A stretch of 64,000 bases of DNA from Ascidia mentula (taxonomy: Eukaryota > Chordata > Ascidiacea > Phlebobranchia > Ascidiidae), in contig OX387201.1 in NCBI GenBank assembly GCA_947561715.1, forward strand, positions 3,118,001-3,182,000. The letters run 5' to 3'. The notes under the pieces were generated by a model, which worked only from the letters and a program-made list of their open reading frames with translations, was not told the DNA's origin and searched no databases. Shown here one piece after another: positions 6,801 to 57,700 of this stretch. The position numbers and the translations under genes are program-made. Position 1 is the first letter of the stretch. Every line of letters starts with the position of its first letter.

Positions 6801-8342
6801 ACAGCGAATCATATCCTATCTACAGCAAGGCATTGGGGTAGGAATTCAGTTCTACTCAATCGTAGCGTCGCACATCGAATTCTTTCGTCATGACTATTAC
6901 TTCTCTTACGGCGCCCCGACTCGGTGAGAATACTGCTCCGTACGCGCCAACTACATTAAACACATTCAGCACTTGCGTCAGAGACGCTTTGCGAAATTAG
7001 GACGATGGCAGACTGCAAGGTGCACTACGAAGGACATGGCAAGGCAAATTGATGTTTCTGATAGGCGTTTCGTGGTAGCTACTCTACCTGTGAATTCTGC
7101 ATAAACTGGTTGTATAGTTGTACGGTGTATTTTGATGTTATTTTATTGGCAGTTGAGTGGTTGTTGTCACTACGATACGTTGAAAATGTGGGCTTCAGTC
7201 AGTATAAGGGTCCTAGTTTTCAAATTAGTACTTAGTCTGAATAGTTTGTTGTAAGGGACATATAGCAACAAAACACTACCCCGCATAGCAAAATCTGTAA
7301 AGCAATTTATTTGGGCGTACCAACCCCTGTACTTGCGGTTGTAAGAAATTATGCCAATGGAGAACTCGAGAGTGTGGTCGTTACTCGTTAGCTCGTAGTT
7401 GTAGTTTAGTGAGGTCAACAGCAAGAGTATACCCCGTGTCGCGTTGTCGCGTCCCTTTTCGCCTTCCTTATTGTTGTCAGTGAGTTTCTTGCACATGTCA
7501 AGCTTGCCATTCTCTTCAGCAGCGAAAAGGCAAATGCCACGAGAAATGCGTTGTAAATCCAATAGGAGGAGCAAGGCGTTTCAACTGCGGTTGTCCGGAC
7601 AGCTGCAGGGATATACTTACCTGCGCTAGGTCGATTACGCAAGATTTGGCGGGAAAGACGCGGGGTACAAGTTTTGCCCATGCGCATGCAAGAAGTAAGC
7701 AGTTAGCTTGTTTGTTCTTTTGTAGACTACATGTTTAGAAACGCCTGTGCACATAACAGATTTTGGTGTTCCGCGAACGTTTTATGAACTTCGCACAGTT
7801 TTATTGTAGAACAGATGAAAAGACAATTTAACAATGAAGGCTTTTAAAATATTTTTTTTATATATATGTTAGATACATTGATCGACTATCAAGTAACGTT
7901 ACGATTGTCTACTAACGGTATAAGCTTTGAAGTTTCTCCTCATTCTGGTTCAAACGTTAGCGTGTAGTCTCGCCACTCGTACACGGGTCTCATGATTTTG
8001 GGAAAGGTGGTTGGGCGGAATGGATTTTTTTGCAACGTATGTCAACTGAACGCAATTCCTTTGTCCCTTTTTGTAGGAGAGAAAATTGAACAGAACGAAA
8101 GCGGCAACTTAAAGTGCAATGGGAAAATGTACTGGCATTTATTATAATAAAGAACATAAAAAATAACCACATGAAATGTGAGGATTTGGATCAAATAAAG
8201 TTGTATTACTCCGTAATGTAGATTCCAACAATTCTCGATCAAGATATTTTACTTCCGAAAGTGGAAATAACATCTTCAACATTAAGTTATTTATGACGTA
8301 ACGACGTTAATGTATTTTGTTGTCGATGTTGGCTTTCTCCCA

Positions 8343-9194
8343 CGCTGTCGAGGTCGCGATTCAACGCCTTTATGCAACGGTGCGTGAAGTAGAAAAGCAG
8401 TGTGTGGCAACATGTACCGCCGACAGATTATTGGTGCATTGTCTGTTATTGAAGTATTACTTGCAGCAGTAAAGCAACTTGCTTTAATTACATCGAGTAA
8501 CAATAAATTAATATAAAATCGAACATAAAAAGCAACGAAACGAAAGGAAAATCACACCTGACGGGTTAGATATTTGGTCTTTGCAGCCAAACAATAATGA
8601 ATGAACGAAATCTCGTGTTTGTTCCGTGTCAAGGTTATTTCAACAGAGACAGAGGCTCGCCTTTTGCCGATATCGGTTAGTCAGTTTTCCGCGGACGTAT
8701 ATTCCCTGCCCCTTAGTCGGTATTATATTTGGCGGGAAAGCGCATAAGAGCGAGTGTGCTGCGTGATGTGTGAGGAAAATATGAAAGAGTTGCTGTGCAA
8801 ACGATTGCAGGTTTTTTAACCATAAAGAAGTCTCACCTGCTGTTAGACGAAACGTAGGTTGCAATAAAAAATCTCTTAACTTTATGCCAGAATAACCGAC
8901 GTTGCTTTGTTCGTATTCCGCGGGTATATTAACCTGCTCTCAGTCGGTTGGTAATCGGGAAAGCGCATATGCGGGGTGCCGCGTGATGTGGACAACATAA
9001 AAAGGAATTTTTGCCATGTTTTTTTAATCCACCAGATATCCGTATTGTTACGCGATGTAATTAAAGCACGTTGTTTTGCTGATGGATGTAATGCTTCAAT
9101 AACAGTTAATGCACCATGATCTGAACTCGTTGCCACACACTGCTTTCTACTTCACGCACCGTTGTAAAGGCGTTGAACCGCGACCTCGACAGCG
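8343..9194. repeat. Long inverted repeat with ~155-bp arms (copy A)
   Basis: The left arm (about 8,343-8,502) begins CGCTGTCGAGGTCGCG. The right arm (about 9,041-9,194) is its diverged reverse complement, ending CGCGACCTCGACAGCG. The interior carries two direct, diverged copies of a module containing TTCCGCGG and GGGAAAGCGCATA. The same structure is at 35,819-36,659, and a left-arm-only copy starts at 39,252. It looks like a foldback or MITE-type element; I see no transposase. Confidence 0.7.
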
Positions 9195-12414: not shown

Positions 12415-13350
12415 ATGAATACCAAAGCTTACGACGACAGCCTTAACTCCTTCAACAATTAATAGATCAACAATCGCGTCGTCTCCTCACATAAAAAAAA
12501 TTTCCACAACACGATTTACTGCTTCGCTACACTTAATAAAATCTCGGTTTCAATAAAGAATCTCGGTTTCGCCACAGGAAGGTTTCGACGAACCGTGAGA
12601 GAGGTGCAAAGGGGGGACGCATCTGCTGAAGAACAAAACCAATGTGCTGTATCAATTACAGGCGCCAGTTGCTCTGTGTGTTGTGTCGTTAAAAACCACC
12701 AATACTGGCAGTAGATGTTTAGACATGGATGTTTCGAAATAATTGAACAAAACAACAGTACAGTGAAGTGAAGTGTTGTAAAAGCCAAAGGATACATTGC
12801 AGCGTAGCCCTTGGCTATCTCTGCCACCCACCTTGAAAGTGCTAAGTTTGTCGTACACAAGAAGAAAACGAAGGTCGATATTTGAATACCAAACTATTAT
12901 TATCAGTATTGCAAATTTCCTTGTATATCTCTAGGCGTCTGAAATCGCTAGCATACCGTTGGCACCAGATCAGGGATAGACAACGCAATAAAATGTTTGG
13001 CACGTGGTGGATAGTTTAGAACAAATATAGCTCGCATAATCGTTTTGGGTTGTGCATCTCGTGCCTGCGTTGTTGTCTGTCGCATTTCCAATGACGCCAC
13101 GAGTTCATTGAAACCAGAGCACGTGGCGCGCGAACAACAGTCGAAGTATTCACTCGTGTCAAGAAACAAAGGCTTGGGTTCTCCTTCAGAAGCGGCAGAA
13201 TGTAAAATGAACACCGGTCATTCAAGCTAATGGAAGTTGGGCTAAACAATATTATGGAGTTTTCGGCACTTAATACCGCAGTACAACGCAATAGTATAAG
13301 GTTTTTGTTTTCTGATGACGTCAGCATAATTCATTTACTGCTTTGTCATA
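12415..13350. other. Gene-free stretch before the satellite
   Basis: The left part holds the 12,560-12,810 dispersed module. The rest, about 12,850-13,350, is single-copy within this window. Overlapping reverse-strand open frames exist there but show no splice structure, domain or paralogue, so no gene is called. Confidence 0.55.
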
Positions 13351-16300
13351 AAAAAAAACGGGCGGGCATATGTTGCGAAGCAAACCCTAGTCGGTCGACG
13401 TCACAGCCGGGCGAAGTAGCGTTGGGCGCAAAGGAAAAAGGGGCGGGCATTTATTGCGAAGCAAACCCTAGTCGGTCGACGTCACAGCCGGGCGAAGTAG
13501 CGTTGGGCGCAAAGGAAAAAGGGGCGGGCATTTATTGCGAAGCAAACCCTAGTCGGTCGACGTCACAGCCGGGCGAAGTAGCGTTGGGCGCAAAGGAAAA
13601 AGGGGCGGGCATTTATTGCGAAGCAAACCCTAGTCGGTCGACGTCACAGCCGGGCGAAGTAGCGTTGGGCGCAAAGGAAAAAGGGGCGGGCATTTATTGC
13701 GAAGCAAACCCTAGTCGGTCGACGTCACAGCCGGGCGAAGTAGCGTTGGGCGCAAAGGAAAAAGGGGCGGGCATTTATTGCGAAGCAAACCCTAGTCGGT
13801 CGACGTCACAGCCGGGCGAAGTAGCGTTGGGCGCAAAGGAAAAAGGGGCGGGCATTTATTGCGAAGCAAACCCTAGTCGGTCGACGTCACAGCCGGGCGA
13901 AGTAGCGTTGGGCGCAAAGGAAAAAGGGGCGGGCATTTATTGCGAAGCAAACCCTAGTCGGTCGACGTCACAGCCGGGCGAAGTAGCGTTGCGGCAAAGG
14001 AAAAGCGGGCGGGCATTTGTTGCGAAGCAAACCCTAGTCGGTCGACGTCACAGCCGGGCGAAGTAGCGTTGCGGCAAAGGAAAAACGGGCGGGCATCACA
14101 GCCGGGCGGTGTAGCGTTGGGCGCAAGGTAAAAACGGGCGGGCATTTATTGCGAAGCAAACCCTAGTCGGACGACGTCACAGCCGGGCGGTGTAGCGTTG
14201 GGCGCAAGGTAAAAACGGGCGGGCATCACAGCCGGGCGGTGTAGCGTTGGGCGCAAGGAAAAACGGGCGGGCATTTATTGCGAAGCAAACCCTAGTCGGT
14301 CGACGTCACAGCCGGGCGGTGTAGCGTTGGGTGCAAGGTAAAAACGGGCGGGCATTTATTGCGAAGCAAACCCTAGTCGGTCGACGTCACAGCCGGGCGA
14401 AGTAGCGTTGGGCGCAAAGGAAAAAGGGGCGGGCATTTATTGCGAAGCAAACCCTAGTCGGTCGACGTCACAGCCGGGCGAAGTAGCGTTGGGCGCAAGG
14501 TAAAAACGGGCGGGCATTTATTGCGAAGCAAACCCTAGTCGGTCGACGTCACAGCCGGGCGAAGTAGCGTTGGGCGCAAAGGAAAAAGGGGCGGGCATTT
14601 ATTGCGAAGCAAACCCTAGTCGGTCGACGTCACAGCCGGGCGAAGTAGCGTTGGGCGCAAAGGAAAAAGGGGCGGGCATTTATTGCGAAGCAAACCCTAG
14701 TCGGTCGACGTCACAGCCGGGCGAAGTAGCGTTGGGCGCAAAGGAAAAAGGGGCGGGCATTTATTGCGAAGCAAACCCTAGTCGGTCGACGTCACAGCCG
14801 GGCGGTGTAGCGTTGGGCGCAAGGTAAAAACGGGCGGGCATTTATTGCGAAGCAAACCCTAGTCGGTCGACGTCACAGCCGGGCGAAGTAGCGTTGGGCG
14901 CAAAGGAAAAAGGGGCGGGCATTTATTGCGAAGCAAACCCTAGTCGGTCGACGTCACAGCCGGGCGGTGTAGCGTTGGGCGCAAGGTAAAAACGGGCGGG
15001 CATTTATTGCGAAGCAAACCCTAGTCGGTCGACGTCACAGCCGGGCGAAGTAGCGTTGGGCGCAAAGGAAAAAGGGGCGGGCATTTATTGCGAAGCAAAC
15101 CCTAGTCGGTCGACGTCACAGCCGGGCGAAGTAGCGTTGGGCGCAAAGGAAAAAGGGGCGGGCATTTATTGCGAAGCAAACCCTAGTCGGTCGACGTCAC
15201 AGCCGGGCGGTGTAGCGTTGGGCGCAAGGTAAAAACGGGCGGGCATTTATTGCGAAGCAAACCCTAGTCGGTCGACGTCACAGCCGGGCGAAGTAGCGTT
15301 GGGCGCAAAGGAAAAAGGGGCGGGCATTTATTGCGAAGCAAACCCTAGTCGGTCGACGTCACAGCCGGGCGGTGTAGCGTTGGGCGCAAGGTAAAAACGG
15401 GCGGGCATTTATTGCGAAGCAAACCCTAGTCGGTCGACGTCACAGCCGGGCGAAGTAGCGTTGGGCGCAAAGGAAAAAGGGGCGGGCATTTATTGCGAAG
15501 CAAACCCTAGTCGGTCGACGTCACAGCCGGGCGGTGTAGCGTTGGGCGCAAGGTAAAAACGGGCGGGCATCACAGCCGGGCGGTGTAGCGTTGGGCGCAA
15601 GGAAAAACGGGCGGGCATTTATTGCGAAGCAAACCCTAGTCGGTCGACGTCACAGCCGGGCGGTGTAGCGTTGGGCGCAAGGTAAAAACGGGCGGGCATT
15701 TATTGCGAAGCAAACCCTAGTCGGTCGACGTCACAGCCGGGCGGTGTAGCGTTGGGCGCAAGGTAAAAACGGGCGGGCATTTATTGCGAAGCAAACCCTA
15801 GTCGGTCGACGTCACAGCCGGGCGAAGTAGCGTTGGGCGCAAAGGAAAAAGGGGCGGGCATTTATTGCGAAGCAAACCCTAGTCGGTCGACGTCACAGCC
15901 GGGCGGAGTAGCGTTGGGCGCAAGGTAAAAACGGGTGGGCATTTATTGCGAAGCAAACCCTAGTCGGTCGACGTCACAGCCGGGCGAAGTAGCGTTGGGC
16001 GCAAAGGAAAAAGGGGCGGGCATTTATTGCGAAGCAAACCCTAGTCGGTCGACGTCACAGCCGGGCGGAGTAGCGTTGGGCGCAAAGGAAAAAGGGGCGG
16101 GCATTTATTGCGAAGCAAACCCTAGTCGGTCGACGTCACAGCCGGGCGAAGTAGCGTTGGGCGCAAAGGAAAAAGGGGCGGGCATTTATTGCGAAGCAAA
16201 CCCTAGTCGGTCGACGTCACAGCCGGGCGGAGTAGCGTTGGGCGCAAAGGAAAAAGGGGCGGGCATTTATTGCGAAGCAAACCCTAGTCGGTCGACGTCA

Positions 16301-19300
16301 CAGCCGGGCGGTGTAGCGTTGGGCGCAAGGTAAAAACGGGCGGGCATTTATTGCGAAGCAAACCCTAGTCGGTCGACGTCACAGCCGGGCGGAGTAGCGT
16401 TGGGCGCAAAGGAAAAAGGGGCGGGCATTTATTGCGAAGCAAACCCTAGTCGGTCGACGTCACAGCCGGGCGAAGTAGCGTTGGGCGCAAAGGAAAAAGG
16501 GGCGGGCATTTATTGCGAAGCAAACCCTAGTCGGTCGACGTCACAGCCGGGCGGAGTAGCGTTGGGCGCAAAGGAAAAAGGGGCGGGCATTTATTGCGAA
16601 GCAAACCCTAGTCGGTCGACGTCACAGCCGGGCGGAGTAGCGTTGGGCGCAAAGGAAAAAGGGGCGGGCATTTATTGCGAAGCAAACCCTAGTCGGTCGA
16701 CGTCACAGCCGGGCGGAGTAGCGTTGGGCGCAAGGTAAAAACGGGCGGGCATTTATTGCGAAGCAAACCCTAGTCGGTCGACGTCACAGCCGGGCGAAGT
16801 AGCGTTGGGCGCAAAGGAAAAAGGGGCGGGCATTTATTGCGAAGCAAACCCTAGTCGGTCGACGTCACAGCCGGGCGGAGTAGCGTTGGGCGCAAAGGAA
16901 AAAGGGGCGGGCATTTATTGCGAAGCAAACCCTAGTCGGTCGACGTCACAGCCGGGCGGTGTAGCGTTGCGCGCAAGGTAAAAACGGGCGGGCGAGCAAA
17001 CCTAAGTCGGTCGACGTCGCAGCCGGGCGGTGTAGCGTTGCGCGCAAGGTAAAAACGGGCGGGCGAGCAAACCTTAGTCGGTCGACGTCACAGCCGGGCG
17101 AAGTAGCGTTGGGCGCAAGGTAAAAACGGGCGGGCGAGCAAACCTTAGTCGGTCGACGTCACAGCCGGGCGAAGTAGCGTTGGGCGCAAGGTAAAAACGG
17201 GCGGGCGAGCAAACCCGAGTCGGTCGACGTCACAGCCGGGCGAAGTAGCGTTGGGCGCAAGGTAAAAACGGGCGGGCGAGCAAACCTTAGTCGGTCGACG
17301 TCACAGCCGGGCGGTGTAGCGTTGCGCGCAAGGTAAAAACGGGCGGGCGAGCAAACCTTAGTCGGTCGACGTCGCAGCCGGGCGAAGTAGCGTTGGGCGC
17401 AAGGTAAAAACGGGCGGGCGAGCAAACCTTAGTCGGTCGACGTCACAGCCGGGCGAAGTAGCGTTGGGCGCAAGGTAAAAACGGGCGGGCGAGCAAACCC
17501 TAGTCGGTCGACGTCACAGCCGGGCGAAGTAGCGTTGGGCGCAAGGTAAAAACGGGCGGGCGAGCAAACCTTAGTCGGTCGACGTCACAGCCGGGCGAAG
17601 TAGCGTTGGGCGCAAAGGAAAAAGGGGCGGGCATTTATTGCGAAGCAAACCCTAGTCGGTCGACGTCACAGCCGGGCGAAGTAGCGTTGGGCGCAAAGGA
17701 AAAAGGGGCGGGCATTTATTGCGAAGCAAACCCTAGTCGGTCGACGTCACAGCCGGGCGGAGTAGCGTTGGGCGCAAAGGAAAAAGGGGCGGGCATTTAT
17801 TGCGAAGCAAACCCTAGTCGGTCGACGTCACAGCCGGGCGAAGTAGCGTTGGGCGCAAAGGAAAAAGGGGCGGGCATTTATTGCGAAGCAAACCCTAGTC
17901 GGTCGACGTCACAGCCGGGCGGAGTAGCGTTGGGCGCAAAGGAAAAAGGGGCGGGCATTTATTGCGAAGCAAACCCTAGTCGGTCGACGTCACAGCCGGG
18001 CGGTGTAGCGTTGCGCGCAAGGTAAAAACGGGCGGGCGAGCAAACCTAAGTCGGTCGACGTCGCAGCCGGGCGGTGTAGCGTTGCGCGCAAGGTAAAAAC
18101 GGGCGGGCGAGCAAACCTTAGTCGGTCGACGTCACAGCCGGGCGAAGTAGCGTTGGGCGCAAGGTAAAAACGGGCGGGCGAGCAAACCTTAGTCGGTCGA
18201 CGTCACAGCCGGGCGAAGTAGCGTTGGGCGCAAGGTAAAAACGGGCGGGCGAGCAAACCCTAGTCGGTCGACGTCACAGCCGGGCGAAGTAGCGTTGGGC
18301 GCAAGGTAAAAACGGGCGGGCGAGCAAACCTTAGTCGGTCGACGTCACAGCCGGGCGGTGTAGCGTTGCGCGCAAGGTAAAAACGGGCGGGCGAGCAAAC
18401 CTTAGTCGGTCGACGTCGCAGCCGGGCGAAGTAGCGTTGGGCGCAAGGTAAAAACGGGCGGGCGAGCAAACCTTAGTCGGTCGACGTCACAGCCGGGCGA
18501 AGTAGCGTTGGGCGCAAGGTAAAAACGGGCGGGCGAGCAAACCCTAGTCGGTCGACGTCACAGCCGGGCGAAGTAGCGTTGGGCGCAAGGTAAAAACGGG
18601 CGGGCGAGCAAACCTTAGTCGGTCGACGTCACAGCCGGGCGAAGTAGCGTTGGGCGCAAAGGAAAAAGGGGCGGGCATTTATTGCGAAGCAAACCCTAGT
18701 CGGTCGACGTCACAGCCGGGCGAAGTAGCGTTGGGCGCAAAGGAAAAAGGGGCGGGCATTTATTGCGAAGCAAACCCTAGTCGGTCGACGTCACAGCCGG
18801 GCGAAGTAGCGTTGGGCGCAAAGGAAAAAGGGGCGGGCATTTATTGCGAAGCAAACCCTAGTCGGTCGACGTCACAGCCGGGCGAAGTAGCGTTGGGCGC
18901 AAAGGAAAAAGGGGCGGGCATTTATTGCGAAGCAAACCCTAGTCGGTCGACGTCACAGCCGGGCGAAGTAGCGTTGGGCGCAAAGGAAAAAGGGGCGGGC
19001 ATTTATTGCGAAGCAAACCCTAGTGGGTCGACGTCACAGCCGGGCGAAGTAGCGTTGGGCGCAAAGGAAAAAGGGGCGGGCATTTATTGCGAAGCAAACC
19101 CTAGTCGGTCGACGTCACAGCCGGGCGAAGTAGCGTTGGGCGCAAAGGAAAAAGGGGCGGGCATTTATTGCGAAGCAAACCCTAGTCGGTCGACGTCACA
19201 GCCGGGCGAAGTAGCGTTGGGCGCAAAGGAAAAAGGGGCGGGCATTTATTGCGAAGCAAACCCTAGTCGGTCGACGTCACAGCCGGGCGAAGTAGCGTTG

Positions 19301-22300
19301 GGCGCAAAGGAAAAAGGGGCGGGCATTTATTGCGAAGCAAACCCTAGTCGGTCGACGTCACAGCCGGGCGAAGTAGCGTTGCGGCAAAGGAAAAAGGGGC
19401 GGGCATTTGTTGTGAAGCAAACCCTAGTCGGTCGACGTCACAGCCGGGCGAAGTAGCGTTGCGGCAAAGGAAAAACGGGCGGGCATTTATTGCGAAGCAA
19501 ACCCTAGTCGGTCGACGTCACAGCCGGGCGGTGTAGCGTTGCGCGCAAGGTAAAAACGGGCGGGCGAGCAAACCTTAGTCGGTCGACGTCACAGCCGGGC
19601 GGTGTAGCGTTGCGCGCAAGGTAAAAACGGGCGGGCGAGCAAACCTTAGTCGGTCGACGTCACAGCCGGGCGAAGTAGCGTTGGGCGCAAGGTAAAAACG
19701 GGCGGGCGAGCAAACCCTAGTCGGTCGACGTCACAGCCGGGCGAAGTAGCGTTGGGCGCAAGGTAAAAACGGGCGGGCGAGCAAACCTTAGTCGGTCGAC
19801 GTCACAGCCGGGCGAAGTAGCGTTGGGCGCAAAGGAAAAAGGGGCGGGCATTTATTGCGAAGCAAACCCTAGTCGGTCGACGTCACAGCCGGGCGAAGTA
19901 GCGTTGGGCGCAAAGGAAAAAGGGGCGGGCATTTATTGCGAAGCAAACCCTAGTCGGTCGACGTCACAGCCGGGCGAAGTAGCGTTGGGCGCAAAGTAAA
20001 AAGGGGCGGGCATTTATTGCGAAGCAAACCCTAGTCGGTCGACGTCACAGCCGGGCGAAGTAGCGTTGGGCGCAAAGGAAAAAGGGGCGGGCATTTATTG
20101 CGAAGCAAACCCTAGTCGGTCGACGTCACAGCCGGGCGAAGTAGCGTTGGGCGCAAAGTAAAAAGGGGCGGGCATTTATTGCGAAGCAAACCCTAGTCGG
20201 TCGACGTCACAGCCGGGCGAAGTAGCGTTGGGCGCAAAGGAAAAAGGGGCGGGCATTTATTGCGAAGCAAACCCTAGTCGGTCGACGTCACAGCCGGGCG
20301 AAGTAGCGTTGGGCGCAAAGGAAAAAGGGGCGGGCATTTATTGCGAAGCAAACCCTAGTCGGTCGACGTCACAGCCGGGCGAAGTAGCGTTGGGCGCAAA
20401 GGAAAAAGGGGCGGGCATTTATTGCGAAGCAAACCCTAGTCGGTCGACGTCACAGCCGGGCGAAGTAGCGTTGGGCGCAAAGGAAAAAGGGGCGGGCATT
20501 TATTGCGAAGCAAACCCTAGTCGGTCGACGTCACAGCCGGGCGAAGTAGCGTTGGGCGCAAAGGAAAAAGGGGCGGGCATTTATTGCGAAGCAAACCCTA
20601 GTCGGTCGACGTCACAGCCGGGCGAAGTAGCGTTGGGCGCAAAGGAAAAAGGGGCGGGCATTTATTGCGAAGCAAACCCTAGTCGGTCGACGTCACAGCC
20701 GGGCGAAGTAGCGTTGCGGCAAAGGAAAAACGGGCGGGCATTTATTGCGAAGCAAACCCTAGTCGGTCGACGTCACAGCCGGGCGAAGTAGCGTTGGGCG
20801 CAAAGGAAAAAGGGGCGGGCATTTCTTGCGAAGCAAACCCTAGTCGGTCGACGTCACAGCCGGGCGAAGTAGCGTTGCGGCAAAGGAAAAAGGGGCGGGC
20901 ATTTATTGCGAAGCAAACCCTAGTCGGTCGACGTCACAGCCGGGCGAAGTAGCGTTGCGGCAAAGGAAAAAGGGGCGGGCATTTCTTGCGAAGCAAACCC
21001 TAGTCGGTCGACGTCACAGCCGGGCGAAGTAGCGTTGCGGCAAAGGAAAAAGGGGCGGGCATTTATTGCGAAGCAAACCCTAGTCGGTCGACGTCACAGC
21101 CGGGCGAAGTAGCGTTGCGGCAAAGGAAAAAGGGGCGGGCATTTATTGCGAAGCAAACCCTAGTCGGTCGACGTCACAGCCGGGCGAAGTAGCGTTGGGC
21201 GCAAAGGAAAAAGGGGCGGGCATTTCTTGCGAAGCAAACCCTAGTCGGTCGACGTCACAGCCGGGCGAAGTAGCGTTGCGGCAAAGGAAAAAGGGGCGGG
21301 CATTTATTGCGAAGCAAACCCTAGTCGGTCGACGTCACAACCGGGCGAAGTAGCGTTGGGCGCAAAGGAAAAAGGGGCGGGCATTTATTGCGAAGCAAAC
21401 CCTAGTCGGTCGACGTCACAGCCGGGCGAAGTAGCGTTGGGCGCAAAGGAAAAAGGGGCGGGCATTTATTGCGAAGCAAACCCTAGTCGGTCGACGTCAC
21501 AGCCGGGCGAAGTAGCGTTGGGCGCAAAGGAAAAACGGGCGGGCATTTGTTGCGAAGCAAACCCTAGTCGGTCGACGTCACAGCCGGGCGAAGTAGCGTT
21601 GGGCGGCAAAGGAAAAACGGGCGGGCATTTGTTGCGAAGCAAACCCTAGTCGGTCGACGTCACAGCCGGGCGAAGTAGCGTTGCGGCAAAGGAAAAACGG
21701 GCGGGCATTTATTGCGAAGCAAACCCTAGTCGGTCGACGTCACAGCCGGGCGGTGTAGCGTTGCGCGCAAGGTAAAAACGGGCGGGCGAGCAAACCTTAG
21801 TCGGTCGACGTCACAGCCGGGCGGTGTAGCGTTGCGCGCAAGGTAAAAACGGGCGGGCGAGCAAACCTTAGTCGGTCGACGTCACAGCCGGGCGAAGTAG
21901 CGTTGGGCGCAAAGGAAAAAGGGGCGGGCATTTATTGCGAAGCAAACCCTAGTCGGTCGACGTCACAGCCGGGCGAAGTAGCGTTGGGCGCAAAGGAAAA
22001 AGGGGCGGGCGAGCAAACCCTAGTCGGTCGACGTCACAGCCGGGCGAAGTAGCGTTGGGCGCAAGGTAAAAACGGGCGGGCGAGCAAACCCTAGTCGGTC
22101 GACGTCACAGCCGGGCGAAGTAGCGTTGGGCGCAAGGTAAAAACGGGCGGGCGAGCAAACCCTAGTCGGTCGACGTCACAGCCGGGCAAAGTAGCGTTGG
22201 GCGCAAGGAAAAAACGGGCGGGCGAGCAAACCCTAGTCGGTCGACGTCACAGCCGGGCAAAGTAGCGTTGGGCGCAAGGAAAAAACGGGCGGGCGAGCAA

Positions 22301-22840
22301 ACCCTAGTCGGTCGACGTCACAGCCGGGCGAAGTAGCGTTGGGCGCAAGGTAAAAACGGGCGGGCGAGCAAACCCTAGTCGGTCGACGTCACAGCCGGGC
22401 GAAGTAGCGTTGGGCGCAAGGTAAAAACGGGCGGGCGAGCAAACCTTAGTCGGTCGACGTCACAGCCGGGCGAAGTAGCGTTGGGCGCAAGGTAAAAACG
22501 GGCGGGCGAGCAAACCTTAGTCTGTCGACGTCACAGCCGGGCGAAGTAGCGTTGCGGCAAAGGAAAAACGGGCGGGCATTTATTGCGAAGCAAACCCCAG
22601 TCGGTCGACGTCACAGCCGGGCGGTGTAGCGTTGCGCGCAAGGTAAAAACGGACGGGCATTTATTGCGAAGCAAACCTTAGTCGGTCGACGTCACAGCCT
22701 GGCGGTGTAGCGTTGCGCGCAAGGTAAAAACGGGCGGGCATTTATTGCGATTATTGGGTTCGAAGCAAACCTTAGTCAGTCGACGTCACAGCCTAGCGGT
22801 AAAATGTTGGGCGTAGGAGAAAACGCGTCGGCAAACATGA
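13351..22840 (+). repeat. CpG-rich satellite array, 81-bp and 71-bp units
   Basis: About 9.5 kb of head-to-tail units, roughly 120 copies. The main unit is 81 bp. A short form of 71 bp lacks ten bases (GCGAGCAAACC replacing the ATTTATTGCGAAGC version), an 80-bp form carries TTGCGGC, and a ~44-bp form has the junction GGGCATCACAGCCGGG. Each full unit holds GTCGACGTCAC, a GGGCGGGC box and about nine CpGs. Edge units are the most degenerate, as in other satellites. Because 81 is a multiple of three, the main type leaves a 27-residue repeat open, but the variant AAGGTAA inserts stops; I do not regard it as coding. Confidence 0.97.
16745..18802 (+). repeat. 1,044-bp higher-order repeat inside the satellite
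   Basis: A block mixing 81-bp and 71-bp units (about 16,745-17,758) recurs with a shift of exactly 1,044 bp (about 17,789-18,802). Several rare variant junctions keep the same offset (16,961 and 18,005; 17,041 and 18,085; 17,281 and 18,325). The two copies differ at very few positions, such as CCCGAG against CCCTAG, so this amplification is recent. Confidence 0.85.
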
Positions 22841-23963: not shown

Positions 23964-25201
23964 TTTTATGGTGTAAAAAATTCGAAAAAAGTTGGGCTAA
24001 ATTCAATTCAATTGATTTTCGACATTATCAACAAACAATCAAAACTTGGCATAGGTAAAAACGATACATTTAACAAATTGTATCTTGACGAGGGGTCGGT
24101 AAAAACCTCAATTGGTTTTATGAAACCGACCTGGTTTTGGGACTTAACAGAAGAAGTCGGATGGGGATAAGAATAAGGACGAGGAACAAGAGGAACCCAA
24201 AGTGAATGGTGACAACAAACATGTTGATGTAAGCAGATTGTTCTTGAAAGATCGACTGGCCTTATCACTCACAACTTTTCTTAAACAAGACGTTTTTTGA
24301 GTTTTTTGTGGTTGTTTTTTACAAAGATACAAAGTTAAGAAAATAACCCCAAAATACGATCTTATTTTAAACAAAGAAGATTAAACGAGGCAAAATGTCC
24401 ACCGTTGGTTTTTACCTGTGAATAAAAAGACTAACTACCTGAACTACGTTTGTATGTGATGAGTAAATCACTCGTTCACTTAGTTATGTAGAAAAACTAT
24501 CTGTGCAGAAAACTTTTATAACGTAGCTTTTCCATTTTGCAAGAAACCGAACCTGAACCTGAAATTGATTATTTTCAATACGAAGAGGAATACGGAGTGA
24601 CGACAACAACTATAATACGAACTATTATTGTTGAAACTCAAGACCCCAATGAGGTTAATATTGCACAGTCATGTTTTTCCATTTTTTTTTATAACGTCGT
24701 TTAATATAAATAACTTTGTGGGCCCCACTGCCATCAAGTGTAATTATTTATTAAAATATTTGTTTGTCATTTAATTTTTTGGGCAATTTTGCCGAAAAGA
24801 TCGCATACAATAGTTACACCAATCTGCACTGACGCCTAATTTGTCGAAATAGTGGCCATCTGCGTGCATCTCACGTAATTCATATTACTGGCTCCATATT
24901 GCTTACATAGACAATATATAACTTAGTTTTATTCACGGTATATTTTGTGTTAATCGTTTTCGGATAATTATTTGAAATAAATAGTAACACACGTTCCAGG
25001 TGCCTCATATGTCAATGCTGTGCGCTGTCCTTGCGACCAATGTTGATACGTTAATCATCAAGCTTTATTTGAAATTTTTTTCCTCAGTTCAAACTCCCTC
25101 CTCCAAAAGTTGAAGTTGGTGTGAGCGGGGATCACGTGATCGAGGTATCGCGTGAAGTCAAGCGTAAAGTCGTCGACCAATCATCATCGGACAGCGATTG
25201 A
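23964..25201 (+). CDS. 3' exons of an unidentified protein with an acidic tail
   Basis: Four exons join in matching phase: 23,964-24,098, 24,151-24,208, 24,544-24,653 and 25,088-25,201 (stop TGA). The product segment is about 138 residues. A neutral stretch ending NKLYLDEGS is followed by a Lys/Asp/Glu-rich run (DKNKDEEQEEPKV), then ETEPEPEIDYF, a Thr/Ile stretch (VTTTTIIRTII) and a C-terminal SSSDSD. The first intron would be only 52 bp with good GT and CAG ends; an uninterrupted alternative frame reaches a stop sooner. No domain recognised. The 5' exons are not found; they may lie upstream of the micro-protein gene or the model may be incomplete. Confidence 0.5.
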
Positions 25202-26686: not shown

Positions 26687-27251
26687 CTTTCTTTGTTTAG
26701 ACAAATGAGGCGCTATGTGGGTATTCAGATTCCACGGTGTTTTTAACGCAGTTTCACACAGATTCAATGTATGGGAAGCTTGTTTGCGTCACGCTCTGCC
26801 ATCGGCGTAAAACCTGGGTCGCTGCTATACAAAGCTTTTTTGTTGAGCACTTCTACTGTAACCTACTGTAATATTTCGGAAATAATAATTTAAGATCTTG
26901 GTAAAGGTTCGTAACGGTTGGCCGATCAAGCACGTGACCAGGCAACAAATATTGACGTAACAATTGACTACATTCCGCTCTTTCTTCAAACGTTGTGTGT
27001 AACGTTAAGTAGTTCCTGTTCGACTGGTTCAGGTAGGCGTCGATGTCTTTGTGAAGATGGCGCTTCAGTTTGATGTAAACCGTGTAACATTAGCTCTGAG
27101 CTCAAACCGTTCATTATATTTAATCAGCCAAGTTTAACGTTTTTATTGGCTTGCAGCTAAATGTTTAACAACAGTTGTAGGCCACGTTTGTGATGTTAAC
27201 TAATAGAGCTAAGCATATACAACGATGTACCTTTGTCTTTTTCAGTCAAAA
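26687..27251. other. Divergent 5' region between the four-TM gene and NTase-TPR copy B
   Basis: Duplicon B begins at about 26,898. The flank then runs from the equivalent of position 487 straight to the equivalent of 1,217. A pyrimidine tract and CAG acceptor end at 27,245, leaving six UTR bases before the ATG, the same arrangement as copy A. Confidence 0.6.
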
Positions 27252-30118
27252 ATGGCCTTTAACCGGATAATCCTGTATTATGAGTTTGTCGACAGTCTCT
27301 ACAGAAAAACAAAAAGCGACGGGGCAGACGCCATCATTAGGGACCAGCACATACTGGCGGCGTGTGAATACTTCCTGGGCGGGACTATGCGAAAATACTG
27401 CGACCACAGAGGCAAAGAAAAAAACCCGCAAGTCACGAGTAGAATTGTCCAGCAAATTGGATGCATTTACAGAATGCGGAGCCCAGATAAGATGTCGCTG
27501 ATAAAGGCCGCTGTACTTTACAACGCGGCTCTGCAAAGACAGCCGAGCAATACTGGTAAAGTCGACAATGACCTGGAGGAGCTGTGCGCCCACATACTGG
27601 ACCTGGCTGGTGCACCTGATAGAAACGTCGACGTGTTAAAACAAGCAAAAAACGCGAAAGACGAGATGGGAAAGTTAAGAGAAATGGTACAAGAATTAAA
27701 CGGCCTACCGTCAGTTCGTTTTGACGACGAGCCTCAAAAATTGGCAATAATCGTAGCTGTGGAAAATCTTCAAAAACGAATTACTGAAGGTTACAGATCG
27801 ACCATGCAACACATCATGGACTTCTGCGTCAATGCTTTAGGCCCAGCTCCGTGCAAATATGCATTTGTAGGCATGGGTTCGCTCGCTAAAAAAGAAATTA
27901 CTCCTTACTCAGATTTCGAAAACCTCATAGTTTTGCAAGACGGAATTGAGCACGAAAAAAATTACGAAAGCGTACTGGAGTTCTACCGCTGGGTGGCAGT
28001 GTTGTTTCAAGTAATATTGATCAGCATGGGTGAGACCATTCTCCCATTTATGGACATTTTTGCGTTGAGAGGTTGGCTGTACGACGCTTTTACTACCTGC
28101 GGTGTTTCGCCGGACGGTATCGCTCCCCAGGCAAGTAAAAATCCATTGGAAAGACAGCAAGGCACCTCTGCCAAGCCGTGGACTACCGAACTGATCCGGC
28201 CTGTTAAGGAGATGCTTAAATACACTAAACCCATTCACGACCTGAAGAACGGATACCACTTGGCTGACATGCTAGGGAAGACTTGTTTTGTGGCTGGAGA
28301 TGAAGGCTTGTACGGAGATTTTGCCAGTGGTGTGCGAGAAAATGTCGGCTCACAGGAGAATAAGTTTTTTGAAGAGGTCGGTATAATATGGGTAGCATTT
28401 CCTAACATGCTCTTCTAGTTACGTATAAACTTACCTTTTAGACATTCTGTTCCAATAGTGGGTTAATCGTTCATAATTTATATTTATATAAAACAAAGAA
28501 AATGTAAATATTCCATTTGTGAGCAACGTAATAATTTGACACATATTCAGGTAATGATGAAGTTTTAATGCAACATATGGTTGTACATTACCTCGAATAG
28601 CATCAAAATGTGAACATGACTTTAACATGTACACTCTTTCAGGTGCGAGCCGACTTAAAAAGCTTCTCCGTCATGTCGCGTCTACCCTATGTGCAGGATT
28701 CCCAGCAATTGGACGTAAAGCGGGTTCTCTTCCGCGTCACAACTCTCTTCATCTCAGCGCTTGGGAGGTTTAAAGGAATCCATTCAATATCATCGTTTGA
28801 AATTGCGCGGGAATTACATCGAATCGGCGCAATAAGTAAAAACTTTTTAAACGACATTCTGTTCGCACTCGCAGTCGCTTGCGAGGTCCGACTCAAGGTC
28901 TACAGCAGTCAACAAGCGCAGACCGACCGATTGCGGAACCGAAAACGAGAAAACGAATCCACCATAGTTGATCTCCTGGGCGAAGACACGGCGGTGCTGT
29001 ACTTTGAAATAGCGTGGAAGTTACAATGCTTTGTTGCTCGCATTGTGAACAGTGATCAACAAGAAATGAACGATGATCCACAGATGACGAGGATTTGGAT
29101 CTATTACTCTTCGGGTAGGTGGAGCCAGAGCTTAGAGGCTTTCAACAAACTTGGAAATCTTCACCTTCCACCTGGCGAAATTGACACTAAGCAAGCCTTG
29201 CTGATAGGTCTGTGTTATCAGAAACTTGAGCAGTATTGGAAGGCATTGGATTACTTTAAAGTCGTTGAAAATAAATTGAAAGACAGCGAAAGTCTGGACC
29301 TTTTGGTAAGCCAACGAGAAATGCGCGACTGTCTGATGAAGACCGGGCATGTATCAGAAGCGTTTCAACTTCTTGAACAAACCCATGACTTTTATAATAA
29401 GCTCGCACAAGGCGTTGGTTTGCTCCCACTTTCGGATGCAGTACAGCTGATGGCAAAAAACAAGGTACACCATCCACAAATTGATCCACGGCTGGAAAAC
29501 CATCACACCATAGCTAAGCGCCTCCATTTCAGCGGACACGTTTGTCGCGGGAGACAGAATAACGACTTGGCTCTTGAGTTTTACAACAGAGAGTTGGAGA
29601 TACAGAAACGTTTAACAGCTGATCCAATACATGACAAAAAGATCGCCAAGTGTTACCTGTACATGGGCGAGTGCTTGATAAACCTACGTCGCCTGGAAGA
29701 AGCTGAAAATATTCTAAGACGAGCGGAGGCCATGTACGAGGTGAACAACTTTAGGCCTGCCAAGGACATGGTGCTGGAAATGAGTCTCGGTCAGATCGCA
29801 ATATTCAAAAAGGATTTTGATCGCTCGATGATGCACTTTCCAAAGCAGCTCGATCTGGAACTGCAGCGGGAAGATTTAAACCACCAGCGTATTGGGTCTT
29901 GTCACTGTGGTTTAGGCGCAAATCTTCTGTACAAAGGTGAGTTCGAGGCGTCGCTGGAACAGTACAGAATGGCGAGAGAGGTTTTCCTCAAGTCCAAAGT
30001 GGAGACACTTCGTGATGCTGGGTTGGCTTTATGCAACGACTGCATGAACGAGGTGTTTAGGCAGCAGAAGTTAAAAGCACGCGAGGAGCAACCACACACG
30101 TCCTCGTCAAATTCATGA
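27252..30118 (+). CDS. Nucleotidyltransferase-like / TPR protein, copy B (two exons)
   Basis: Exons 27,252-28,376 and 28,643-30,118 join in phase 0 to give about 866 residues, one fewer than copy A (a single Glu near residue 150). The NTase-like signature (GMGSLAKKE, then PYSDFE) is unchanged, as are the TPR-like repeats and the C-terminal SSSNS. Substitutions are scattered and mostly conservative, and there are no stops or frameshifts, so both paralogues look functional. The intron is about 90 bp longer than in copy A because of extra sequence near 28,520-28,615. The start follows a 5' UTR splice acceptor; a longer in-frame start nine codons upstream falls in the presumed intron. Confidence 0.85.
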
Positions 30119-35700: not shown

Positions 35701-35818
35701 AGGTTCCAACAATTCTCGATCAAGATATTTTACTTCCGAAAGTGGAAAAAACATCTTTAACATTAAGTTATTTATGACGTAACGACGTTAATGTATTTTG
35801 TTGTCGAAGTTTCTCCCA

Positions 35819-36659
35819 CGCTGTCGAGGTCGCGATTCAACGCCTTTATGCAACGGTGCGTAAAGTAGAAAAGCAGTGTGTGGCAACATGTACCGCCGAC
35901 AGATTATTGGTGCATTGTCTGTTATTGAAGTATTACTTGCAGCAGTAAAGCAACTTGCTTTAATTACATCGAGTAACAATAAATTAATCGAAAATAGTAA
36001 GCAACGAAACGAAAGGAAAATCACACCTGACGGGTTAGATATTTGGTCTTTGCAGCCGAACAATAATGAATGAACGAAATCTCGTGTTTGTTCCGTGTCA
36101 AGGTTATTTCAACAGAGACAGAGGCTCGCCTTTTGCCGATATCGCTAAGTCAGTTTTCCGCGGACGTATATTCCCTGCCCCTTAGTCGGTATTATATTTG
36201 GCGGGAAAGCGCATAAGAGCGAGTGTGCTGCGTGATGTTTGAGGAAAATATGAAAGAGTTGCTGTGCAAACGATTGCAGGTTTTTTAACCATAAAGAAGT
36301 CTCACCTGCTGTTAAACGAAACGTCGGTTGCAATAAAAAATCTCTTAACTTTATGCCAGAATAACCGACGTTGCTTGGTTCGTATTCCGCGGGTATATTA
36401 ACCTGCTCTCAGTCGGTTGGTAATCGGGAAAGCGCATATGCGGGGTGCCGCGTGATGTGGACAACATCAAAAGGAATTTTTGCTATGTTGATTTAATCCA
36501 CCAGAAATCCGTATTGTTACGCGATGTAGTTAAAGCACGTTGCTTTGCTGATGGATGTAATGCTTCAATAACAGTCAATGCACCATGATCTGAACTCGTT
36601 GCCATGGCTTTCTACTTCACGCACCGTTGTAAAGGCGTTGAACCGCGACCTCGACAGCG
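35819..36659. repeat. Long inverted repeat, copy B
   Basis: Duplicate of 8,343-9,194 with the same arms and the same internal module pair. The left arm's ATCGAGTAACAATAAATTAA at about 35,968 is an empty site for the hammerhead insertion described at 39,391. Confidence 0.7.
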
Positions 36660-39390: not shown

Positions 39391-39514
39391 AGTACCAATA
39401 ATATGCGCAGAAGAGCCATAATAATCAATTAGAGCTGCAGACAGGGTGTATACACGCACTGTTTCGACCTGTAAGGTCTCATCAGTGCAGCTGTTGATGT
39501 GGCAGTAACAATAA
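39391..39514 (-). mobile_element. Short non-autonomous hammerhead element with 11-bp TSD
   Basis: Inserted sequence 39,402-39,503 (102 bp) is bracketed by AGTACCAATAA (39,391-39,401) and AGTAACAATAA (39,504-39,514). The unoccupied site is visible in the paralogous arms at about 8,495 and 35,972, proving an insertion with an 11-bp target duplication. The element is mostly the ribozyme. Small hammerhead-bearing retroelements related to Penelope-like elements and retrozymes are known in animals; assignment to that group is an inference, as no protein-coding part is present. Confidence 0.85.
39433..39492 (-). ncRNA. Type I hammerhead ribozyme
   Basis: Read on the reverse strand. Stem I is formed by AGCUGCA (complement of 39,486-39,492) pairing with UGCAGCU (complement of 39,433-39,439). 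The CUGAUGA core follows, then stem II GACC/GGUC with a UUACA loop, then GAAA. Stem III is ACAG/CUGU capped by the self-complementary GUGUAUACAC, and the cleavage triplet is GUC. All universally conserved core bases are present. Predicted cleavage falls between the complements of 39,440 and 39,439. Short stems resemble the minimal type I hammerheads of Penelope-like elements. Confidence 0.9.
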
Positions 39515-40495: not shown

Positions 40496-40978
40496 GTTTG
40501 CAGTAGTGATGTTCCCAGTTCCAAATTATCCGGCCCGGCCGGATCCGGATAGTTATTAATCAAATCCGGCCGGATAATTTGGATCCGGCAGTTTGTTAAC
40601 ACTGATTCGTGTATTATGGCAAAAATGCTATGTTAAGGTTAGCCTGTCATAAGCGGAACAAATCAACTTGGGCATTTATTAATTAATGTCACGAAAAATT
40701 AATTAAATTAATTAATTAATTAATTAATTAATGTATAACACGTCACGAAAAACCTTAATTACAAATAACAAAAAAATCTTACGTCGGCGAGTATAACAGA
40801 CTGGGTCCCCAAAACGAGTAATTTGCGAATTGTTTGTACGCTTTTAGGACAAAAATGCTTTCCCAACTATCCGGTAAAATTAAGTGTATTATCCGGCCGG
40901 GTCCGGGTATTGAAAATTGGTCAATATCCGGCCGGGTCCGGGTACCCGGATCCGGCGCAACCCATCACTAGTTTGCAG
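40496..40978. mobile_element. 467-bp hAT MITE with perfect 8-bp TSD
   Basis: The element spans 40,504-40,970 with terminal inverted repeat TAGTGATG...CATCACTA and is flanked by GTTTGCAG on both sides (40,496-40,503 and 40,971-40,978). Uninterrupted GTTTGCAGCAAGCTTAG occurs at about 10,131 and 38,362, giving two empty sites. Subterminal regions are packed with CCGG/GGATCCGG motifs. The centre has an AATT/TTAA microsatellite (about 40,690-40,735). No transposase is encoded. The intact TSD and absence from the sibling copies indicate a young insertion. Confidence 0.92.
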
Positions 40979-54751: not shown

Positions 54752-57700
54752 TTATTTCTTTTTGCTCGATTTCTTCTTGTTCGGTGTCCCTGGAGCCCCG
54801 CGTGATGATGTTCGTTTCACCGTTTCCAGTTTCTCTGTGTCAGCAGGTTTCTGATAAAAGTATTCGCAATTAGAACGGCGATGCAACAGTTCGGACAATA
54901 AGTAACAACTTATTATAATTCGCGACTCTCACCGGTTCAGGAAGTTTTTCTTTGGCAGCCTCGGGTGCTGGACTGCCAGGCTTTGTAGGGTCCACATCTT
55001 CAAACTGTGACACCTGACGAAGCAAAAGTCACCGTGACGGTATTGTACAGATATCGAAGCATAGAGCGACCATATACCAAAACGAATATATTTCATCTGC
55101 TTACAATCAGGCTGCAAACGTTTATAGCGTACTTGATACAAAACCCAGGAGAAATTTGGCTATTTTGTGTTACAATTGTACTGATTCAGTTGGCGTTTTG
55201 AGAACACATCAAAGAAAACATAGCGTAGTAAAAAAAAGTCCCAAAATCTGTTTTTTCGTCCAGACTCTTTTTTTTTTCTTCCAGACGCAAATTCACACCA
55301 TCAGCAAATTATCGCAAGGTCATATTACTTTTTTCTCCAAGGAACGGATGAGCTCATGGGCAGAATTCAATTCTTCCTCAAGATCGAACGCTTTCTCTTC
55401 TGCCTCCTGCGCTCTTTTCTCTGTATTTCTGAAACAAAACGAAGCAGATGCACAAAAAGTGTCGCCAATGCGGTATCTAAGTTTGGTTTGTTGTGGCCAC
55501 AGCGTAATTTACCTTGAGGTGAAAACTATGTTGTAATGTAAGTAAAGTTAAGCGCTCTGTATTTTCAGTGCAACGTCTTAAAATATCCAATTAATGCTCA
55601 AAAAACTTCCTACTACACGTAAGAGGTCAAAATATGTAAAATATTATGTGTTTAAACGAAAAACAACATCTAAATTTGTGCTACACGTTCTGGCAATACT
55701 GCAATCATAATGATTTTAAATGGGAGGCTACGTTTGTTACTTTCTGTCTGAAAAAATCAGTATATTTTACTTACAAAAGTTGGTCCTGGACCTCATCCAT
55801 TTTGGCAATGGCGTCGTACGCAGACTGCGTTAAAGCGGATGAGGGCGGTGTAAGCTCATGGCTGGAAATCGCTCTCACTGTGGCGCCCTCTTTCGGAAGA
55901 ATGGATATCGATTGGACATTTTCGTCTCTTCCAATCGCTTCCATTCTTGTGGGAAGTTCGGAAACTGTCGCTAAAAACGTTTTTAATTAATCAAACATTC
56001 TTATTTCATAAGCAATTAAAAATTTAATGTCCACAAGTGAGTTGTAGATAGGGCCACTATACATATATTAGCTCTCATCAGTAAAGCATGGTGACTAGTG
56101 ATAATCTTGCCCGTTGAATGGATTTTCCATCAAGCTGCAATGATTATACATTATAGGTCAAAACATTGCTCCTGTCTGTAGCATATTGATGTCAAATTTC
56201 AAGCAGGTTTTTACTCGCCAAAAGATTTTTTACTTTCTGATATGGGACATCTAACAACGTGATAACTGAAACAGAATACGTACGAGAAGATGGTGTTTTT
56301 TCGGCGCCGGCAGGATTATCCGGCGTGCCCTGCAAAAAATATAGTTTTGTTTAGTCCCACATGTAAATATAAATAATGTCATTATTCTGTTGCAGCACAT
56401 AGTCGGTTTCAACCCGAAACTCTATCACAATAGCTCGTCACAGTTCACGCATTACAGATATACATCAAAAACCCTTATCTGGTACCACAGAGACTTCAGC
56501 AGTTTCTTCCTTCTTCTCTTCCACCTTCGCAGTAGCAAGGGGTGGTTCCAAGGTCTTCGGATCATCAGAAGTCGACTGCTGTTGTTGCGACGTTTCGGTC
56601 AGTTTCTGGGCATCAGGGATTGTTTCCCCGCCCAGCGCCTCTACTCTCACTGGGACGATTGTCTAGAAAATCCATGGTTGAATTACTCGGCACTGGAAGT
56701 CTTGAAAATGCCACAGAAACTAATTGAAATAAAATTTGCTCGAAAACGTCGTACCATTGAACCAGTTGGTATCCGAATCTACAGTATTCTATAAGCAATA
56801 GAGCCAATAATGTTTGTATAGTGATCTGCAGACAGGGCCACTGTTGTAAGTCACACAAAAGCTGCACTGATGAGACCTGCAGCTCACTATACAGTATTCT
56901 ATTTTACACATAAACAAATTCGCAAGTAGGTTCCTTAACACTTTTATTTCAAGACAAGCGCCGGAACGCACTGACCTCTGACCCCTCTTGCGTCACAGGC
57001 CGACTGCCTGGTGTCTGGGGCGTCTCCTCCCCGTTCTGTGCGTCATCGCGCACCAGCAGCAACTTGCTGACGTCAGAAGAGAGAAGTCTCACGGGGGAAG
57101 GCAGTATGGAATTGAGGAGAATTTCGCATGTGTGAATCCATTCTTTCGCTTCCCTCTGTTTAAGAAATTGTCCTTTAACTATGGATATGGGAAGGACTGC
57201 ATGTAACGCTAACAGTGCCGTTCTGGTTATCAGTTTGATAAATTAGAAGCCATTGGGTATATGACGTTACATGGGTAATTATTACGTAAAATAAGCTAAA
57301 AATGATTGGCCAATGTTGCCGCAACACTTGTTACCTTAACCCGTGAGAAATCCCTGTACTCGTGTTCCGCATCTTCCTCTCGTAAATCCTTCTTCTCCTG
57401 CATAGTTTGTAAGACTATACTGGACGTACATCTGAAAATTTGACATATACTAATCTACGTGAAACAAATCAGAGTCAACAGTCATTACATCAGGCCTGTT
57501 TAAATGTTGGGTGGTTCCATCGTAATCATAAAAACTACGAATTCAATCAAACTATAATGAGCGTTGGGCCTGGTTATCCCAAGGTCGTGAGATTTTTCAA
57601 ATCATAGCTCCGACTTGTCAGGGAAAAAGTGGCTGATCCAGCTAGGCTGCATTGCCTGAAAAACCTTATGATCGCGATACGTTATCTGTGATCGCCAATC

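Follow-up and report, generated by a model that had tools for sequence, protein, structure and literature searches.

Among described systems, the closest to the locus analysed here are the non-LTR retrozymes of metazoans. According to PMC7229834, these are short tandem repeats of ~150-450 bp, low in G+C and without coding sequence, which carry type I hammerhead ribozymes, produce target duplications longer than the 4 bp known from plant retrozymes, and share their host genomes with Penelope-like elements (PLEs) that bear minimal hammerheads. Its passages on metazoan retrozymes mention neither two-armed insertions nor an end rule of the kind reported below, and its main text lacks the words 'inverted', 'tail' and 'head-to-head'. 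The plant LTR retrozymes, as described in a 2020 review (PMC7761336), are also non-coding, hammerhead-bearing and dimeric or multimeric; their hammerheads are of type III, and they have LTRs, a primer binding site and target duplications of 4 bp. The review states that metazoan retrozyme repeats hold no conserved motif from which the driver retrotransposon could be deduced, and names PLEs and Terminons as likely drivers by co-occurrence (PMC7761336).

PLEs, with their pLTRs and tail, combine tandem and head-to-head arms, bear the tail on a single outward end, produce target duplications of ~8-12 bp, and have a hammerhead near their 3' end region (PMC11167929; PMC3846280). The PLE protein of Anolis was found to cut and extend both strands. 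It initiates reverse transcription internally at a pair of neighbouring sites, and this explains the PLE tail (PMC11167929).

The locus lies in a window of 64,000 nucleotides (the whole stretch of Ascidia mentula DNA that was analysed), and the feature that it holds is a truncated metazoan-type non-LTR retrozyme, an already known kind of element. The retrozymes described below share with those of other metazoans the type I hammerhead, the low G+C, the lack of coding sequence and the company of PLEs with minimal hammerheads; the repeat lengths of the two families, 293 bp and 285 bp, fall within the range of ~150-450 bp, and their target duplications exceed 4 bp (10-11 bp in the window copy). 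Unlike the tandem repeats described, the window copy is a single truncated module without tandem units. The likeness to plant LTR retrozymes extends to the non-coding, hammerhead-bearing, dimeric or multimeric make-up, whereas the type I layout and the longer target duplications set the present elements apart from them. PLE-like traits are the tandem and head-to-head arms, the single outward tail, the length of the target duplications and the position of the hammerhead. Unlike PLEs, however, the retrozyme has neither reverse transcriptase nor endonuclease (an open reading frame for a reverse transcriptase with GIY-YIG is absent, and the 293-bp unit is too short for one), and it carries a full type I hammerhead with a closed stem III rather than the minimal form. 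On the evidence set out below, we consider it probable that the window element is a 5'-truncated copy of a 293-bp non-autonomous tandem retrozyme, moved by the reverse transcriptase of a resident PLE.

The first-pass annotation of the window had reported a hammerhead-bearing insertion at 39391-39514 with an 11-bp target duplication and two preserved empty sites, and direct reading of the sequence bears this out (Table 1). The duplication is present with one mismatch over 11 bp; counting the T of the 5' junction as part of the element shortens it to 10 bp. The flanks belong to a repeated block, whose two paralogues (8238-8861 and 35719-36330) align with them at 80.8-87.7%, both without the insertion and each with a single AGTAACAATAA at the corresponding position. 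Element positions (p) are counted such that the window coordinate equals 39504 - p, position 1 being the G of GCCACATC, and the RNA of the element corresponds to the minus strand, a point on which the first-pass annotation was silent.

Table 1. Retrozyme-related features of the window, in window coordinates.
Feature	Position	Strand	Basis
Inserted element, 102 bp	39402..39503	-	gap relative to two empty paralogous sites
Target-site duplication, copy at element 3' end, AGTACCAATAA	39391..39401	.	sequence and paralogue alignment
Target-site duplication, copy at element 5' end, AGTAACAATAA	39504..39514	.	sequence and paralogue alignment
Unoccupied target, paralogue 1	8496..8506	.	single AGTAACAATAA
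Unoccupied target, paralogue 2	35972..35982	.	single AGTAACAATAA
Stem I, 5' strand GCUGCA	39486..39491	-	fold
Catalytic box CUGAUGA	39479..39485	-	sequence, core pattern
Stem-loop II GACC-UUACA-GGUC	39466..39478	-	sequence, fold
GAAA box	39462..39465	-	sequence, core pattern
C17, predicted self-cleavage 3' of this base (GUC, element position 64)	39440..39440	-	sequence reading
Stem I, 3' strand UGCAGCU	39433..39439	-	fold
Region matching site A (element 74-81 in sister copies)	39424..39430	-	3' ends of sister copies
Site B (element 100-105 in sister copies), end used by the window copy	39402..39404	-	3' ends of sister copies
Decayed hammerhead/retrozyme relic, nearest to family 2 (77% over 108 columns)	24808..24887	+	model R1, 58.4 bits
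Hammerhead relic	56019..56102	-	model R1, 18.4 bits
Decayed hammerhead relic, outer stem CAUCAA/UUGAUG kept	56119..56198	+	member of model R1
Rearranged hammerhead relic	56847..56905	+	26.8 bits with model R1, non-member

The element had been described at first reading as a complete type I hammerhead, and this layout is seen on the minus strand both in the sequence and in the minimum-energy fold of the 102 nt. The fold is the hammerhead three-way junction, in which stem I pairs GCUGCA with UGCAGC and is prolonged across an internal loop by two outer segments, AUCAA/UUGAU and then GCCA/UGGC, while stem III (ACAG/CUGU) has a closed loop; the triplet is GUC. The folding energy does not stand out (z -0.94; 35 of 200 shuffles do as well). 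The window contains a single match to the core pattern, where 0.07 would be expected. A search of the window element against Rfam, including a run at relaxed thresholds, returned no family at gathering score; the best scores were 28.6 bits for RAGATH-1-hammerhead (cut-off 56.3) and 22.6 bits for Hammerhead_3 (cut-off 48.5). Five of eight sister loci matched hammerhead models, all below cut-off (best 29.2 bits), and the other three (L017, L024 and L041) gave no Rfam match at E <=1. The first-pass annotation had named a covariance-model score under threshold as one of two refuting outcomes, and such a score is literally what was obtained, which counts against the hammerhead claim. No Rfam model accepts the element, and the case for a ribozyme therefore rests on anatomy and copy number instead; in our judgement the sub-threshold score, though a result against the claim, is outweighed by the remaining evidence.

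Genome-wide, the core pattern CTGATGAN{4,34}CGAAAC has 4626 matches, compared with 85 for the reversed pattern that served as control; a subset of the 4626, judged by eye from 20 flanks, are the shorter minimal hammerheads of PLEs. This pattern does not constrain stem II. The 100 matches listed gave 48 distinct cores, and in 34 of these stem II has all three of the pairs examined, as opposed to an average of 17.4 and a highest value of 26 in 1000 shuffles of the 3' arms. Stem I gave 7 paired cases in 22 core loci (20 of them chromosome 1 matches only, picked for differing cores), with a shuffle mean of 3.7 and a maximum of 9. Ten hammerheads of the retrozyme type, of which the window contributed three, showed no more covariation when aligned than shuffles did; the structure pairs 82% of cells in these ten, against 19-35% when slid. 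A chance or degenerate hammerhead-like sequence inside an unrelated short transposon would agree with the uniformly sub-cut-off Rfam scores and the unremarkable folding energy, but it would have to coexist with the large surplus of core matches over reversed controls and with stem II pairing far above shuffles, and we regard it as exceedingly improbable. The expression of the retrozymes as linear and circular RNA and their self-cleavage are predictions.

In the genome search, the element is 98% identical to at least 100 nt of sister copies, and the 124-bp region has at least 45 matches, obtained by scoring 40 out of 1853 candidates from a first look. Across the 195.8-Mb genome (79 contigs), exact matches number 120 for the 52-nt ribozyme core, 138 for the 36-nt upstream segment and 138 for the 37-nt stretch spanning the upstream junction. 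Most copies run on upstream into a 293-bp unit, often tandem and often with an inverted arm, and the 102 bp are the end of a unit that recurs every 293 bp (293-295 in direct-tandem loci). The first-pass description of a mobile hammerhead of ~100 bp stands for the size of this insertion and is unsupported for the mobile family, since most copies enter the 293-bp unit. A sample of 39 insertions of this family (family 1) was assembled from the window, 36 loci around the best matches and two more. With a score of at least 6 as the threshold, target duplications were found in 24 of the 39 insertions, or 21 independent ones, as flanks are shared within L009/L013, L020/L021 and L041/L042; among 1482 mismatched flank pairs, 15 reached the threshold. 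Other copies, with target duplications independent of this one, thus exist, as the first reading had anticipated, and its proposal of a non-autonomous family mobilised in trans is supported.

In this family and the second one described below, the 3' ends of two-armed insertions concentrate at two places, which we call sites A and B and which lie, respectively, 10-25 nt and 36-50 nt beyond the ribozyme cut. In family 1, 20 of 39 insertions are two-armed, with the element 3' ends of both arms facing outward. Every two-armed insertion with a target duplication (11 of 11, 10 independent) pairs an A end, at element position 74-81, with a B end, at 100-105. Among the nine two-armed insertions without a target duplication, L034 and L037 lie near A/B, L010 and L026 have B/B ends, and L025, L027, L031, L032 and L038 end elsewhere; L010 and L031 have a right flank in common with L030 and look rearranged. 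The 19 one-armed insertions mostly end at B, with L062, L016 and L036 at A and L017 rearranged; treating them as a class of their own was considered and set aside.

The second family, whose unit measures 285 bp, came to light at C1:3332200-3334500, and 30 loci from the search together with L064 yielded 14 distinct insertions. Two arms are present in 12 of the 14, every one of them A/B, the A ends lying 13-25 nt and the B ends 43-50 nt past the ribozyme cut; because the queries of both families reach past site A, single-unit A/A insertions would escape, and the A/B counts are raw. Target duplications occur in 11 of the 14 insertions, as against 2 of 182 control pairs. Most insertions are two-armed, with parts of several units, and the A/B end rule is the new part of this analysis.

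The 5' end of the window copy also recurs. Its start base is shared by six matches, which reduce to only five independent loci, namely the window, L024, L041/L042, L062 and L063, and in the unselected loci L009-L044 this base is the start of 2 of the 14 independent 5' ends. Such a recurrent start is what would be seen if the 102-bp hammerhead were a minimal mobile family of its own, transcribed as an RNA of ~100 nt and inserted as such. We hold this to be very unlikely, however: L062 spans the common start base to site A, and L063 has the same start base plus an 8-nt inverted arm (read by eye), so that there is no fixed 102-nt unit; the sequence is unbroken upstream at 138 places; and the base before GCC is always T, no copy differing, as expected of a stop inside a larger unit.

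A stop of this kind has a candidate cause in a hairpin predicted directly upstream (-22 to -5; stem pairing probability at least 0.84). In a local fold of -60 to 0 the hairpin closes at -2, whereas in the fold of the whole unit it pairs with the six bases that begin the element. Once past the ribozyme, a reverse transcriptase would run into the hairpin and could halt at U0, and we infer that a strong stop there would explain the start base shared by the five loci. The window would then hold the B arm alone, synthesis having halted one base past the ribozyme at U0, just 3' of the predicted hairpin. A promoter start at element position 0 was weighed as another possible reason for the shared 5' end; among the five loci no longer insertion starts there, and the hairpin stop is preferred. 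On this reading, the '100-bp mobile ribozyme' is a single ribozyme module lying between an internal start site and a stop site, and no separate family.

Which enzyme moves the retrozymes may be read from the same ends. PLEs are resident in the genome: GIY-YIG has at least 121 matches (150 scored of 382 candidates), and each of three PLE open reading frames scanned (892, 732 and 801 aa, without internal stops) contains both RVT_1 and GIY-YIG. As a separate observation, PLEs L057, L055 and L056 stand in tandem with a 2870-bp period, are identical over a 716-bp overlap and also form head-to-head pairs; their recent activity is likely. Ends were measured in three insertions out of 17 PLE loci (L045-L061). 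The outward ends are 32 bp apart in L055 and 33 bp apart in L050, both with a 12-bp target duplication, and 45 bp apart in L047, which has only about 6 bp of duplication. The retrozymes and the PLEs of this one genome, as far as the three measured PLE insertions go, have a rule of one tail per insertion in common. As A/B ends are the published signature of the Penelope tail, they suggest, in a comparison with these PLE ends, Penelope-type reverse transcription as the driver. Comparing the retrozyme with the 17 PLE loci for similarity of the tail gave only a weak match (70% over 61 columns, L046/L053, E 0.002), and the resident 892-aa PLE protein had no match in the window at E 0.01. There is no strong sequence match between the retrozyme tail and these PLEs, and we therefore infer the enzyme from the end pattern.

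LINE insertions, too, are variably truncated at the 5' end, can have inverted arms and are flanked by target duplications of some 7-12 bp; these traits would equally suit a LINE-type reverse transcriptase that moves the retrozyme, in place of a PLE, by target-primed synthesis with twin priming. Classical twin priming, however, gives a single tailed end, the other being internal and variable in position, whereas both outward ends here are element 3' ends, located at two fixed sites ~21-33 nt apart, with one of each per insertion. The same end asymmetry is found in the resident PLEs, and a LINE driver appears unlikely to us.

Under the preferred Penelope-type driver, the hammerhead would cleave multimeric transcripts into pieces of unit length, probably then circularised, and the reverse transcriptase of a resident PLE would take this retrozyme RNA as its template. 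Both strands of a staggered cut would be extended, one start being made inside the RNA at A and the other at B, and the two arms would in this way point their element 3' ends outward, in keeping with the end positions and target duplications observed. Sites A and B both lie past the ribozyme cut, therefore the templates are not cut linear monomers, and uncut multimers or circles remain as possible templates.

Unit likeness bears on the choice between these two. In family 2, units differ on average by 0.33 within an insertion, a value as low as this arising in 0 of 2000 label shuffles, and by 3.52 between insertions. Opposite arms are identical in 9 of 9 pairs, which all come from L069 and L076; three family-2 insertions have an identical unit in another insertion. 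This likeness fits repeated copying of one small RNA, and a homogeneous tandem source would match too. Family 1, with two informative insertions, gave no such signal (9.5 differences within and 7.6 between), as would be the case if tandem arrays moved in the form of linear multimeric transcripts, with no role for circles. The same account agrees with the finding that ribozyme cleavage is dispensable for PLE insertion in vitro (PMC11167929). Set against it are the within-insertion likeness and the identical opposite arms of family 2, although a homogeneous source array would give the same, and we rate transposition as linear multimers as a serious contender that falls somewhat short of an even chance.

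Beyond the choice of template, we tentatively propose, while regarding it as doubtful rather than probable, that one small RNA, probably circular, is read simultaneously from A and B by two Penelope-type enzyme subunits, one per DNA strand. One RNA with a single A and a single B site would explain why the ends are A/B and not A/A or B/B, as well as the identical opposite arms. If this is true, genomes record how Penelope enzymes load their template.

With a Penelope-type driver, the insertion ends would be the trace of the driver that the 2020 review found lacking in the repeats, and the candidate becomes testable, with named start sites. Short retrozyme RNAs could in turn be small templates for the poorly understood PLE reaction. 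A link between retrozyme and PLE ends is reported in no open-access title or abstract that we found, in a search whose scope left subscription papers and bioRxiv preprints largely outside.

Other parts of the window hold further hammerhead relics (Table 1). The relic nearest to family 2 has a broken catalytic box and is itself a member of model R1, the model that scores it. Three relics lie inside 0.9 kb (56019-56905), the first two facing outward like a decayed two-armed insertion. A large G+C-rich satellite array with an 81-bp period and about 110 copies occupies 13968-22738, and the long open reading frames in or beside it (13230-14066 and 18650-19456) have only sub-cut-off Pfam matches. 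Two paralogous pairs of open reading frames, at 1337-4115 and 27225-30118, each encode first a DUF294 nucleotidyltransferase-like protein and then a TPR protein that matches DUF294_C weakly, which suggests a duplicated exon pair or gene. Finally, a long imperfect palindrome at 40508-40596, with a sub-cut-off match to mir-127, is perhaps a foldback element.
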